This document shows, piece by piece, positions 26,024 through 62,509 of a stretch of DNA of 64,000 bases. A model generated the notes under the pieces. The model made no database searches and was not told where the DNA came from. It saw nothing but the letters and a program-made list of their open reading frames with translations. The stretch lies in NCBI RefSeq assembly GCF_038396675.1, contig NC_088933.1, forward strand, positions 22,675,001-22,739,000, written 5' to 3'. Within the stretch, counting starts at the first letter, position 1. Each line of letters opens with the position of its first letter. Made by a program: the position numbers and the translations under genes. The DNA comes from Hydra vulgaris. Taxonomy: Eukaryota > Cnidaria > Hydrozoa > Anthoathecata > Hydridae.

Positions 26024-28361
26024 CTAAACACAAAGAGTTGCCATATAATTTCTATCAATCTCAGGCATGTAGGGCATCATTTTTTTAATATCTTCATTCT
26101 TTTCTTTTGAAAGTAAGTGGCTTTTTTTGGTCTGAATTGACAGTTTTGGTGCAGTTATGGGATATGCTGTAGATTTCTTTTTTCTTAATGATTGGGCACC
26201 TGCAAAAACTGAGGTGAAGCCGTCTGCATGTTTTGTTTTAAATGAAACAGTAAAAGGATGATTGGAATAGTATTTTAATTGCTTTACTTGAGTAAAGGGC
26301 ACTTTGGTAAAGTTATAGCTTTTAGCTCCAGCTTGAATATTTAAAAAATCAACATCTTTCATCTGCAGGATATTGAAAGGTTTCTGTCGCCTAACAGACT
26401 TTAGTATTCTGATCAGACCCAGAGGACTGTATACCTCAGTTTTTTTTAATTTTTGGTCAATGCTGCTATGAACCGCATCAACCTCTTGAACACAGCCATG
26501 TCCGCTTGCAGAAAACTTTTGAGTGATAGATTCAACATCAGGATGAGCATTTAAAAAATGCTTTATTGCCGTGCTCATAATACTGTTTCTATTTTGCGGA
26601 ACGCAAGAATCTGACCATAAAATGAGGTTCTTAAGTTGTGGATGGGTGGTAAGCACAGATTCTAAAATTCGTAGAATTGCAGATGCCAAATCATTTCCGG
26701 CTCTGCCAGATTGGCTTTCAGACCAGATACAACAATAAACATCTTTATCTAAAGAAAGATGTGCTGTCATGTTATAAACAGACAGCTTCCTAAGATAAAA
26801 GAAGTTGGATATCTCAGCCTTGGGAACTGTTAAAACATTTTGTAAATCAAAACAGAGAACAGGATGTCCTGACTGTCTGTCTTTTTTGCGCTCTTCGCGT
26901 GCATCTTCTTTTTGTTCAATATGACTTAGATGCTGAGCCCGTTCACAATCACTTAAAATACCTTCAGCACTTTTGATTTTAAAAATTTCACATTTATCAC
27001 ACCTAACTTTTTTTCTTTGCTGGAAAGAAATATTGAACTCAGTTAAAAAAATTTCAGAGTATAAGTGCTTTTTAGCCGGTTGAAATCGTTTTTGCTGACA
27101 AAAGTCTTGGTAAAGCTCATACAGTCGACTAATAGACAATTCAGACTCAAAGTATTTTCTATTTGTATTAGCACGGCAATAGTGCGAGTCTATAACCGGA
27201 ATACTATATATGTGTTTCCTAACGCCATCTCTGACCGCGTCAGGAATTTTCTTTTTTGTATGTTTACCTTGTTTTCTTGGGGTAGGCGTGTTTGTATCTG
27301 TTTGGAAATGTTTATAAAAATATGAAATTCTTTGTTGGCTTATGTCAAGAGTGTTTAAAAAGAAAGGTTTGCAAACTCTGATGGGAATCCCTGCCAGGTG
27401 AAAAAAGTAGGCAAATGAGTATTGCCGCCTCGATGAAATTGCAAGTGTTCGTTTAGTTTTTTTCACAATACGTGTTGTATTTTCACTATAAAAGTGTGCT
27501 TTGAGGTCACCATTGAGTTCCCAAAATTTGTTAAATAGTAACTCCCGTTGCTCTTGCGGAAAATAAATGTGGCATTTAAATTTACAGTTAGTACAGTCCT
27601 TCTCATTATTGATCTCTCTCTTTCTTCTTATCACTTTATTCCTGCTTTTATACTCCTGGCCAGCTTGACGCCTTTTTTTATTGACATTGCATTTCCAGCT
27701 ATCTGGATTTCTGGTTCTTTTACGTCCAACTTTTTTTTTGTCGAGAGTTGCTCTATTGGCACAACTATTTCTAAATCCGTATGTAGTAGCTTATTGTGGA
27801 AACTTGAATCGACACTGTAGAAATAAAAAGTATAAACTTTAGCTACATTTAAAAACAACATAATATTAAAAAAAAATCAAAAATTAATGACAATTGGAAT
27901 TTCATAAGCATCGTAATTAGCAGGGTAATATAAGTTATTTTTTTACAGTTAGGAAATAAATAATATAAAGAATTTAGTCTTACTTAAAGACTTTGCACAT
28001 AGTTATTTAAAGGCACAATATATATAGTTATACATATAGTTATATATATATATATAGTTATACATATAGATTTATAGTTAGTTAACTACTAGTACTGTGT
28101 ATGAGAGCTAGTCTTAAGTTATTTTAACCCTTTAATGCACGATATTTATATAATAGTTGATAATGCACGATATAATAGTTGACTATTTTATCGTTAAAAG
28201 AACATAAAATGGAATCCAATTATCGGAAAAATAAAATTTTCCTTTTTATTTTCAAATTTTAAAATTACCATAGTAATAGAAACTACTTACGAGTCGGTAT
28301 TAAGTAATTCAAAGTCAACTGTTTCTTTTGTAACTAAACCAATAAACTTACTTGACGACAT
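26024..28361 (-). pseudogene. DUF7869-like transposon gene, two exons, one 1-nt frame break
   Basis: Exon 1 is 28361-28291 (starts MSSSKFIGLVTKETVDFELL, donor C|GTAAGT), exon 2 is 27814-26024 (acceptor TTTCTACAG). Exon 2 is open from its start to an A9 run at 27731-27739. There the frame shifts by one, continuing RKRTRNPDSWKCNVNKKRRQ, AGQEYKSRNK, CTNCKFKCHIYF and on to the stop at 26024. Later landmarks: a Cys pair CDKCEIF, VLCFDLQNVLTVPK, CCIWSESQSGRAGNDLASAI, LILWSDSCVPQNRN, KFSASGHGCVQEVDAVH. Asp in CFDLQ and SDSC plus the GH/EVD region suggest an RNase-H-like core, as in the DUF7869 family, whose members I believe are transposon-derived; that name is from memory. Total about 620 residues. 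Apart from the A-run shift the gene is intact. Confidence 0.75.
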
Positions 28362-37056: not shown

Positions 37057-44494
<7,438 letters not shown>

Positions 44495-58829: not shown

Positions 58830-59087
58830 CATACAAATAGCCATTGATTAATCCAAACAACTATCGAGGTATTAGTATAATACCGATTTTTACAAAAATT
58901 CTAGAAAATCTGATTTTAATAATATGTCCGGAGATTAAGAACACTCACCCGCTACAATTTGAATTTAAATTTAATTTTTCAACCCTACATGCAGAATTTG
59001 TAATTATTGAAACTAATAAACATTACAATAATTCACCTGTTTATTTAGGCTCCTTGGATACAGAAAAAGCCTTTGATAGCTTTAAGA
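58830..59087 (+). pseudogene. LINE RT fragment on +
   Basis: NPNNYRGISIIPIFTKILEN, QFEFKFNFSTLHAEFVIIET and VYLGSLDTEKAFDSF. NYRGIS.P..K..E and DxEKAFD are the finger and motif A of non-LTR RTs. It stops where the minus-strand LINE begins. Confidence 0.8.
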
Positions 59088-59510
59088 TCGTTTATGTATA
59101 TTAAAAACAAAAGAGGTGCAAGTATGGAACCTTGGGGAACACTTTTTTTCCATGAGCGATTGCATTGCTTTCTGTCTAGTAAAAAATTTTTGAACCAGTT
59201 TAGTGCAACACCTTTTATCCCATATTTTTCCATTTTCCTAATTAAGATAGCGTGATCTACCGTGTCAAATGCCTTAGATAAATCAACAAAGACTCCAAGA
59301 ACGTATTTTTTGTTTTCAAAGGAGTCATTTATATTATTTATAAGATCAAGAATTGCGTGTTCATTTAGGATTTTGTTATTTGTTTGATATTTATACAGTT
59401 TATTGTATATTACTCTCTTCAAAAGTTTTGAAAATACAGGAAGCACTGAGATAGGTCTGTAGTTATTTAGTGTAAATGCATCACCGGTTTTAATATTGGT
59501 ATTACCTTAC
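59088..59510 (-). pseudogene. LINE RT fragment on - (CR1/jockey-like)
   Basis: NNYRPISVLPVFSKLLKRVI, GVFVDLSKAFDTVDHAILIR, KMEKYGIKGVALNWFKNFL, SVPQGSILAPLLFLIYINDL. Motif A (SKAFDTVDH) and motif B (PQGSILAPLLF) are intact for about 140 codons; the catalytic FADD box is missing because the copy is cut at 59087. Confidence 0.88.
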
Positions 59511-59815: not shown

Positions 59816-60388
<573 letters not shown>

Positions 60389-60735
60389 GTATATATGTAA
60401 TACCTATAGGTATTATATATAGGTATACCTATATACAGTATTGGACAAAACATTTGCAACCAACATTGAGCAATGCTAAAAAGTGTTCCTAATTTTACAT
60501 GTCTTAAAAACGAAACGAACTATACTACCACAGCAAACAGTTCAGGAGTCTGGAGTCATAGCATGTCATGATATGAGCAATCAGCTGACAGGTGACAGAA
60601 CACAGGCAGAATTTCGTTGACAAGTGCCATTTTGCAGCGGGCAAAACAAGTGCAACTTTTTTAGTTTGTTTCATTTTCTTAAGTCTGGTCCGTGTCAACG
60701 TCACGGAAGTTTTTGAATAATTAAAGGAAGTATCC

Positions 60736-60780
60736 AGAAGTTTCCAGAAGCATGCAGAAGCTTCCAGAAGTTTCCAGAAG
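60736..60780 (+). promoter_or_regulatory. Heat-shock element array (nine pentamers)
   Basis: Contiguous alternating nGAAn/nTTCn pentamers: AGAAG TTTCC AGAAG (CATGC) AGAAG CTTCC AGAAG TTTCC AGAAG. Eight of nine match the binding consensus for heat-shock factor in perfect 5-bp phase. Confidence 0.85.
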
Positions 60781-60881
60781 AAGCATCTGGAAGCATCCTA
60801 GTAGCATCCAGAAATATCCAGAAACATTCAGAAGCATCTAGACGCATCCAGATGCTTCCAGACGCATCGAAAAAAGCATCT

Positions 60882-60896
60882 AGAATCTTCCAGAAC
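60882..60896 (+). promoter_or_regulatory. Proximal heat-shock element (three pentamers)
   Basis: AGAAT CTTCC AGAAC, a perfect trimeric site, 24 bp upstream of a TATA box. Confidence 0.85.
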
Positions 60897-60919
60897 AGGT
60901 TCACACAGGTTCATTTTAC

Positions 60920-60957
60920 TATATAAGAGACATGTAAATCGACATGTAATTCAGTCA
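60920..60957 (+). promoter_or_regulatory. TATA box and initiator of the Tc1 transposase
   Basis: TATATAAG at 60920-60927 and TCAGTCAGT at 60951-60959, about 31 bp apart, the normal TATA-to-start spacing. TCAGT is the arthropod-type initiator. Confidence 0.7.
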
Positions 60958-61138
60958 GTATATGGAAGTCAATCAGACAGTATTAGCAAGACAGTTTATC
61001 GAAGTGAGTTTTATCAAAGTGTTTTATCGAAGAACATCAATACAAGAAGCGAAATACAACAAGTGTTTTATTACATCAATACAGTCCACATCCAACCAAG
61101 ACGTTGTGTTCCACAGAGCATTATTGTATCATCACAAG

Positions 61139-61204
61139 GTAAATGTAACACGGTAAGCCTTGAGAAGCGTGATTATTTATTTTTATTATTTTTATGACTT
61201 TAAG
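61139..61204 (+). other. Possible 66-bp intron in the transposase 5' UTR
   Basis: CACAAG|GTAAAT ... GACTTTAAG|TGC just before the ATG at 61212. Its removal would delete the upstream in-frame ATG at 61194. Confidence 0.45.
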
Positions 61205-61211
61205 TGCAAAA

Positions 61212-62219
61212 ATGGCTACCGACAGTCTTGGATTGGAACTAAGAAAGAAAATTATTGGCGATTACATAAGTGGAATGTCACAAAAAAATATTTGTGATAA
61301 ATATCGCGTGAAAAAATGGACCGTATCAAGACTATGTTCCAAATATCGTTCTACGGGGAAGTTGGCAGCAGATAACAAAGGCGGAAGACCGCGTTCCACC
61401 ACTTCTAGAGAGGATTCTATGATCGTCAGATCCGTCAAGAAGGATCCCTGGATATCATCAGTCGAGATACAAAAGCAATTAGAGCTGCCTGTATTGGACC
61501 GAACAATCAGACGACGTGCTGTTGAAGCCGGGTTGTTTTCTCGACGCCCAGCAAAGAAACCGCTGATTTCACTAAAAAACCAGAAGAAAAGACTCCTGTT
61601 TGCTACATCTCATATTGACAGGAATGTGCAGAAATGGCGAATTGTCCTGTTCAGTGATGAATTGAAGTTCAACATCATTGGGAGCGATGGCATTTGCCGT
61701 GTACGCCGACCGGCCGGAAAACGCCTCGATTTACGTTACTGCCATAAGACCGTGAAGCATGGTGGAGGCAATGTAATGGTCTGGGGGTGTTTTTCTGCTA
61801 ACGGTCTAGGTCCAATACATCGAAACGATGGAATAATGGACCGTTTCATGTATAAAAATATCCTGAAAAATGTTATGTTACCTCATGCTGAATGGAATAT
61901 GCCAATAAAATGGGTTTTTCAGCAAGACAACGATCCGAAACACGCTGCAAAAGTAGTCAAGCAGTGGTTTCAAAACAACCACCTATCGGTGATGGATTGG
62001 CCACCTCAATCTCCGGATCTCAACCCTATTGAGAACCTGTTGTAGATCGTTAACCGCAGAATTAATCGTGAAGGTGTTTGTAATAAGGATCAACTGTTTG
62101 AACAAATCCAAAAGGCCTGGGCAGCGATTCTACAAAGTTTCATTGATCACCTGATCGAATCTATGCCTCGAAGATGCAAGGCTGTGATCAACAACAAAGG
62201 ATTCGCCACGAAATATTGA
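61212..62219 (+). pseudogene. Tc1 transposase, one premature stop
   Basis: Cuts and joins the element at TA sites. Start chosen at 61212 (AAAAATGG, MATDSLGLELRKK) rather than 61194. Two helix-turn-helix segments cover residues about 10-110 (SQKNICDKYRVKKWTVSRL; GRPRSTTSREDS). The catalytic domain has FSDELKF (first D), QQDNDPKH (second D) and SPDLNPIEN (E). Exactly 34 residues separate the second D from E, so DD34E. A TAG at 62043-62045 (codon 278) follows NPIENLL; a Trp codon (TGG) would be normal nearby, so a single G-to-A change is likely. The frame then continues IVNRRINREGVCNKDQLFEQ to TGA at 62217, giving 335 residues, the usual Tc1 length. Preceded by a heat-shock-type promoter. Confidence 0.9.
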
Positions 62220-62408
62220 TAGCAAAATACAGCTTGGTCAACATTTTGTCGAGTTGCACTTGTTTTGTCCAGAAGGAAATCAATTTTTTTAATACTTTTG
62301 ATTAATTTATTAATTTTCATGTACAAATAATGAACTTTGTGATGAATAAAACTTGAAGAACTTTGTCTCTAAACAGTTACATAGTTATTTCTCTAAATTG
62401 AAAAAATG

Positions 62409-62509
<101 letters not shown>

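Follow-up and report, generated by a model that had tools for sequence, protein, structure and literature searches.

An ordered array of heat-shock elements, TATA box, and initiator upstream of the transposase in a Tc1/mariner family of Hydra vulgaris

In the 64,000-nucleotide stretch of the Hydra vulgaris genome analyzed here (assembly GCF_038396675.1, contig NC_088933.1, positions 22,675,001 to 22,739,000 of the forward strand; the window), a run of heat-shock-type pentamers lies between the left end of a transposon and its transposase gene. The initial annotation, made from the letters of the window, read this as a Tc1 transposon with a heat-shock-type promoter. The locus raises the question of whether the run belongs to a promoter that host heat-shock factor (HSF) would drive and that the transposon family shares, or is a repeat in which heat-shock elements (HSEs) appear by accident.

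The identity of the element as a Tc1 transposon was borne out by its Tc3-type helix-turn-helix and DDE domains, a match to SB100X, terminal inverted repeats (TIRs), and TA target sites. Domain searches with the transposase found HTH_Tnp_Tc3_2 (E 8.6e-18) and DDE_3 (E 2.9e-10), and its sole solved-structure match was Sleeping Beauty SB100X (E 7.5e-47). Counted by eye in the translation, 34 residues separate the second D from the E (QQ-D to E-NLL), the spacing of a DD34E transposase; the D presumed to be catalytic was chosen after Sleeping Beauty. The full-length relatives P0001, P0003, and P0005 measure 335-341 aa. The element is thus a Tc1/mariner transposon of the DD34E Tc1 group with TA target sites. 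Helitrons are recognized by a Rep-helicase and have neither TIR nor target site duplication; that identity was rejected for the present element, which has a DDE transposase, TIR, and TA. Its parts in the window are as follows.

60436 to 62408, plus strand: Tc1-like element, window copy, delimited by alignment with other copies; left end CAGTATTGGACAAAAC after the TA at 60434-60435
60442 to 60460, plus strand: left outer terminal repeat motif TGGACAAAACATTTGCAAC, matching the inverted motif at 62253-62271
60641 to 60658, plus strand: left inner copy of the motif, read by eye, giving an inverted-repeat/direct-repeat end
61212 to 62045, plus strand: transposase open reading frame (ORF) from ATGGCT, found by ORF and domain searches and cut off early by TAG at 62043-62045
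62253 to 62271, minus strand: right inner motif copy TGGACAAAACAAGTGCAAC, found by its match to the left outer motif

Alignment with other copies placed the loss of the right end of the window copy at 62408, where a TA microsatellite stands in its place, while many other copies run on beyond this point to GTTGCACTCGTTTTGTCCGATACTG followed by TA. The termini in other copies read TA followed by CAGTATTGGACAAAAC on the left and GTTTTGTCCGATACTG followed by TA on the right. A first sample of copies was selected by the array: 40 array-similar places, including the window, were taken among 291 candidates, and the other 39 were fetched. Among these 39, the left end was recognizable in 30, the right end in 21, and both in 17; of the 14 copies with both ends matching a strict pattern, 12 had TA at either side and 2 had TA and TG. 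TIRs with a TA duplication are therefore known from other copies, as the window copy has no right end. The window copy is dead twice over, by the in-frame TAG at 62043 and by the lost right end, and cannot make an intact transposase. When the genome was searched with P0005 (28,689 candidates), 30 of the 120 matches listed had no internal stop within the transposase match. The transposase had no match in the viral and bacterial contig collections searched, nor had the HSE core and the inner end motif in the viral one, and the 64-kb window gave no Rfam match at the gathering threshold and no tRNA match. Long TA microsatellites border the element on both sides (60279-60421 and 62410-62509), and many other copies also lie in TA runs.

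The promoter region of the window copy and the stretch leading to the transposase contain the following features.

60727 to 60896, plus strand: 10-nt tandem array with consensus GAAGCATCCA, about 16 units, from repeat analysis
60736 to 60780, plus strand: distal HSE block of nine in-register pentamers, eight exact, from a pattern scan; the longest exact run is five, at 60756-60780
60850 to 60864, plus strand: middle block, which the majority sequence of the 40 copies reads as an exact trimer
60882 to 60896, plus strand: proximal HSE, the exact trimer GAATCTTCCAGAA, from the pattern scan and the majority sequence
60920 to 60927, plus strand: TATA box TATATAAG, from the pattern scan, starting 24 nt beyond the proximal trimer
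60951 to 60955, plus strand: initiator TCAGT with its A at 60953, read from the sequence; a second TCAGT overlaps it at 60955-60959
60962 to 61156, plus strand: upstream ORF (uORF) of 64 codons, from the ORF list, with its ATG 9 nt after the predicted start and its end inside the intron
61139 to 61204, plus strand: probable 5'UTR intron (GTAAAT...TTTAAG, 66 nt, GT-AG) or acceptor for spliced-leader trans-splicing, read from the sequence

The nine contiguous pentamers, the second perfect trimer, the TATA box, and the initiator of the initial annotation were all found again at these places. The distal block runs GAA TTC GAA (ATG) GAA TTC GAA TTC GAA, and its mismatched pentamer, cATGc, is retained in nearly all of the 40 array-similar copies. 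The A of the initiator lies 33 nt beyond the first T of the TATA box. The whole window holds just three exact chains of at least three pentamers, a five-pentamer chain at 60756 and separate three-pentamer chains at 60736 and 60882. The arthropod setting implied for the initiator was not supported; the host, Hydra, is a cnidarian.

The layout was compared across the family, which the initial annotation itself had named as a test. The 39 array-selected copies carried an exact trimer in every case, the five-mer in 29, and the ordered series of trimer, TATA box, and TCAGT in 30; one more exact trimer, decayed in the window copy, appears at the 60851 block when the 40 copies are reduced to their majority sequence. 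Since this sample is biased toward the array, a second one was drawn by transposase similarity. Genome matches were ranked by their likeness to the outside protein P0005 (120 best of 28,689 candidates), and for 80 of the first 84 the upstream DNA was fetched; the four left out were the window's own match, one twin on contig C15, and two whose match began after residue 1, and two of those used, L057 and L058, are twins. This sample favors well-preserved transposases and so is not random either.

All 80 transposase-selected copies possess the family 5'UTR. Chosen without regard to the array, 77 of them show an exact trimer in the 621 nt preceding the transposase, compared with 0.7% of 4,000 trials under a first-order Markov null from the same DNA, in which the five-mer never occurred. 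Longer chains were found as well, of five pentamers in 48 copies and of four in 10. Strict patterns recovered the ordered trimer, TATA box, and TCAGT in 45/80 and the TATA box with TCAGT in 65/80. In 60 of the 80 copies, the TATA context was preceded by an exact trimer at no more than 75 nt; the trimer had one mismatch in 5 and three mismatches in 1, and in 14 the context was not found. Two features that characterize heat-shock promoters are thus widespread. One, a series of at least three contiguous inverted nGAAn pentamers ahead of the start, occurs in the window and in 77/80 copies. The other, a TATA box and initiator at a working spacing, takes the form of 33 nt from TATATAAG to TCAGT in the window copy and in 54 of 60 further ones, these 60 being the copies among the 80 examined in which both motifs were found. 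Most of the other copies examined therefore share the layout, in agreement with the reading of pentamers, TATA box, and initiator as one ordered promoter. With a median distance of 2.0% from the majority sequence in UTR and intron (76 copies), the copies are young, so the common layout is partly due to recent descent.

An earlier, indirect check through proteins of other copies that read through the array or promoter (P0006 and P0121-P0127) was superseded by the genome DNA. Of these eight proteins, P0126 lacks the core. The remaining seven cover it, and each is consistent with an intact five-mer, the code fixing 7 to 10 of the 15 motif bases. The proximal trimer was compatible in 7/7 proteins tested, P0006 not among them. 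The TATA box was checked in six, omitting P0122, an nr protein of Hydra vulgaris whose reading frame spans the same array and promoter and implies a copy with a TATA-initiator gap 4 codons shorter. A second outside query, P0009, disclosed no sister family among its matches listed (120 at 60-63% identity, many at P0005 places). P0129, from a 1,683-base NCBI contig, has repeats that can be read, in a back-translation by eye, as a GAAGCCTCCA-like decamer without TTC, and looks unrelated.

The claim that the arrangement is better ordered than chance held in one respect and failed in another. Against random DNA it stood: the five-pentamer pattern with at most one mismatch was found twice in the window, once exactly, where dinucleotide shuffles gave an expectation of 0.01. 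The order of the units, on the other hand, was ordinary when the make-up of each column was kept and the order shuffled (chain of five, P = 0.29; four trimers, P = 0.10). The array consensus GAAGCATCCA is one base away from an HSE, and since the sites are made of such a decamer, their order is not independent evidence. A degenerate array in which sites arose or decayed had also been described, and array lengths differ by multiples of 10 nt in 53 of 61 measured arrays, which, with the decayed trimer at 60851, supports a history in which units would have been gained and lost and sites decayed.

These observations bear on the reading of the array as a decamer minisatellite without regulatory role, its GAAGCATCCA units grown by slippage and resembling HSEs by accident. 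The predominance of 10-nt length steps, the ordinary unit order, and the lack of excess constraint on HSE bases described below would all fit it. However, a GAAGCATCCA array subjected to 24 random changes seldom yielded the 5 TTC units among 16 of the window copy (P = 0.0002, or 0.0016 with AT bias) or its chain of five (P = 0.005, or 0.014 with AT bias), so that the TTC units exceed random decay of the consensus. In the copies whose arrays could be divided into units, the TTC and ATC types are equally common (CTTCC and TTTCC, 200; CATCC and TATCC, 202; of 621 unit matches). Moreover, a TATA box and initiator immediately follow the array, and their 33-nt distance recurs in 54/60 copies. An accidental minisatellite is accordingly considered unlikely.

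Constraint within the family was analyzed in 73 copies. Rare changes per cell were 0.0159 in HSE bases versus 0.0150 in spacers (P = 1.0), with 0.0151 for the remaining array positions and 0.0141 for the UTR, and shared change types numbered 8, 9, 26, and 18, respectively; none of four contrasts was significant (P 0.15 to 1.0), in a test that is weak because the copies are young and decay freely once inserted. Excluded from the rates were the window copy, L058 (the twin of L057), L102 (no array stretch aligned), and L074, L103, L111, L112, and L116, in which the array was largely lost or replaced, while all 80 copies were kept in the state counts; one GAA of the middle trimer was assigned to the proximal class in the rate count, leaving the all-HSE figure unaffected. 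Extra constraint on the HSE bases is desirable support for an HSF-responsive promoter and no defining feature of one, and it was not observed here.

Repeats placed between the left inner repeat and the gene could also serve as accessory sites for the transposase or for end pairing, like the inner repeats of inverted-repeat/direct-repeat elements. By eye, though, they do not resemble the end motif TGGACAAAACA..TGCAAC, the right-end stretch shows no visible counterpart, and the units come and go, which makes this role extremely improbable.

The origin of the promoter in a heat-shock gene was likewise considered. The layout resembles that of a heat-shock gene promoter, the Drosophila hsp70 promoter being alike, and the whole module of HSEs, TATA box, initiator, 5'UTR, and intron could have been captured from a host or donor gene. 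A passage of mariner elements from insects to H. vulgaris is described in PMC7357744. The acquisition proposed in the initial annotation nevertheless found no support, as no source was detected among six hsp70 loci, five of them without an upstream trimer, a comparison that is weak at this number; in addition, the decamer appearance of the array suggests growth in place. Capture is thus regarded as highly unlikely. As a yardstick the host hsp70 genes were of no help, with a trimer in 1/6 loci (0.6-1 kb upstream of each).

Downstream of the initiator, the possible short 5'UTR intron of the initial annotation is present in the window, preceding the transposase ATG at 61212, and its strict pattern recurs in 52 of the 80 other copies. 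Spliced leaders are carried by 29.7-30.9% of Hydra transposon Iso-Seq reads, according to PMC12220107, and for this reason the acceptor may serve spliced-leader trans-splicing, which would remove the 64-codon uORF. Because the uORF begins just past the predicted start and terminates within the intron, translation of the transposase would be affected by splicing or trans-splicing. Folding of the 5'UTR was neither unusually structured nor unusually unstructured (z 0.64).

Array, TATA box, and initiator together probably serve a young, high-copy Tc1/mariner (DD34E) family of Hydra as an HSF-driven promoter for its transposase. Direct observation covers the element with its ends and the ordered promoter, which most sampled copies carry. 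HSF binding, the start site, induction, and mobilization are predictions from this layout. Trimers of host HSF would occupy the proximal trimer and the distal block, and RNA polymerase II would initiate at TCAGT. Transposase would then increase with active HSF, under heat, other protein stress, or possibly germline or stem-cell HSF activity, and would cut and paste the element into TA. H. vulgaris makes HSP70 after heat, at 33°C, as reported in PMC2908143, which also cites work on the absence of an HSP70 heat response in H. oligactis.

An HSF-driven promoter might instead be used mainly in the germline or interstitial stem cells without heat, the heat response being a side effect; this reading overlaps with the preferred one of an HSF-driven promoter. 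Germline expression benefits a transposon, and Hydra TcMar-Tc1 expression is described as cell-population-specific, with putatively active families expressed in i-cells (PMC12220107). Those data, as presented there, are at superfamily level and not for the element in the window, and predominant use without heat is given a modest chance.

The share of the family in the strong HSEs of the genome was estimated by searching 911.5 Mb in 15 contigs. A 43-nt tag from the 5'UTR, with at most 3 mismatches, occurred 2,228 times, versus 0 for its reversed control. Exact five-pentamer matches numbered 2,342 versus 22 in the reversed control, overlapping matches being counted apart, and exact trimers 27,538 versus 12,789. 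Among 100 five-mer matches listed, all from contig C1, 93 were family-like by sequence and 7, at 3 loci, were not. When 20 five-mer loci of C1 were fetched, 17/17 of the family type aligned to the array and at least two other element parts, and 3/3 atypical ones did not. About nine in ten strong HSE matches in the sampled C1 stretch belong to the Tc1 family, a proportion that is an extrapolation for the rest of the genome. One Tc1 family may have captured an animal's heat-shock switch and may supply most strong HSEs of the Hydra genome, a reading given somewhat less than an even chance. If true, the family would mobilize under stress and act as a genome-wide HSF reservoir or sponge, and it would recruit neighboring genes into the heat response, as worm Helitrons did, by an independent route and in a different transposon superfamily.

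Further observations concern other loci. A second, older repeat with an HSE array was noted in L128 (about 3955), L129 (about 3990), and L130 (about 3922), at 82-84% between copies; TATAAAA follows within about 100 nt after the array in the same orientation, and an ORF lies downstream in L128, making this possibly another HSE-driven mobile element. The window also holds a reverse transcriptase fragment at 59045-59446 on the minus strand (RVT_1, E 1.3e-17) and an ion-channel pore exon at 37261-37749 on the minus strand (Ion_trans_2, E 6.3e-07), which runs into a TA repeat and is probably of a K2P-type potassium channel. A 536-aa ORF at 26024-27634 on the minus strand, with a weak DUF7869 match below the family cut-off, is perhaps from another mobile element. 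In the transposase and HSP70 searches, several pairs of matches scored equally or nearly so at a distance of 6-23 kb. Most are on opposite strands; they comprise HSP70 pairs on C12, C10, and C11, the last on the same strand, and element pairs on C5, C8, and C15. Inverted duplications or assembly artefacts may underlie them.

Transposons driven by HSEs are already known; notable here are the Tc1 type, the cnidarian host, and the holding of most strong HSEs in the sampled part of the genome. In our view, claims of stress-induced transposition in animals are frequent, and few have been linked to a promoter. Term searches of the open-access literature, which are incomplete and do not show absence from print, found no Tc1/mariner or Hydra element with an HSE promoter. 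Sleeping Beauty-type Tc1 elements have in common with the Hydra element the SB100X structure match, paired end repeats, and the TA target; we know of no HSE promoter in Sleeping Beauty. ONSEN, a copia element of Arabidopsis, carries HSEs and, unlike the Hydra Tc1, is a plant LTR retrotransposon. It is a heat-activated transposon (PMC6927752), as the Hydra element would be if the induction proposed here holds. The LTR elements TCN3 and TCN12 of Cryptococcus are described with putative HSEs in the LTR and heat-dependent mobility, but they differ in being LTR retrotransposons with one or two putative HSEs (PMC12810828). Tc1/mariner elements of C. elegans also bring factor-binding motifs to promoters, those of LSL-1, EFL-1, and LIN-15B, while the portion of PMC8896005 drawn on describes no HSE array driving a Tc1 transposase.

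The nearest precedent is Helitron1_CE with related Caenorhabditis Helitrons, DNA transposons with clustered HSEs in their own transposase promoter (PMC6927752). Helitron1_CE has 14 HSEs upstream of F33H12.6, and almost two thirds of C. elegans HSEs are located in Helitrons; HSF-1 binding and HSF-1-dependent induction were measured there (PMC6927752), whereas for the Hydra Tc1 we infer both. Helitron1_CE is a rolling-circle element of a nematode, and the Hydra element is a DDE cut-and-paste Tc1 of a cnidarian. The promoter of the Hydra family is easily read, and about two thousand copies bear its tag. The host is a laboratory animal whose HSP70 response to heat is known and for which Iso-Seq and ATAC-seq data have been published. 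Should the reading hold, the family would be a second independent case, after the Caenorhabditis Helitrons, of a DNA transposon dominating the strong HSEs of a genome, and repeated transposon takeover of the heat-shock network would become testable.
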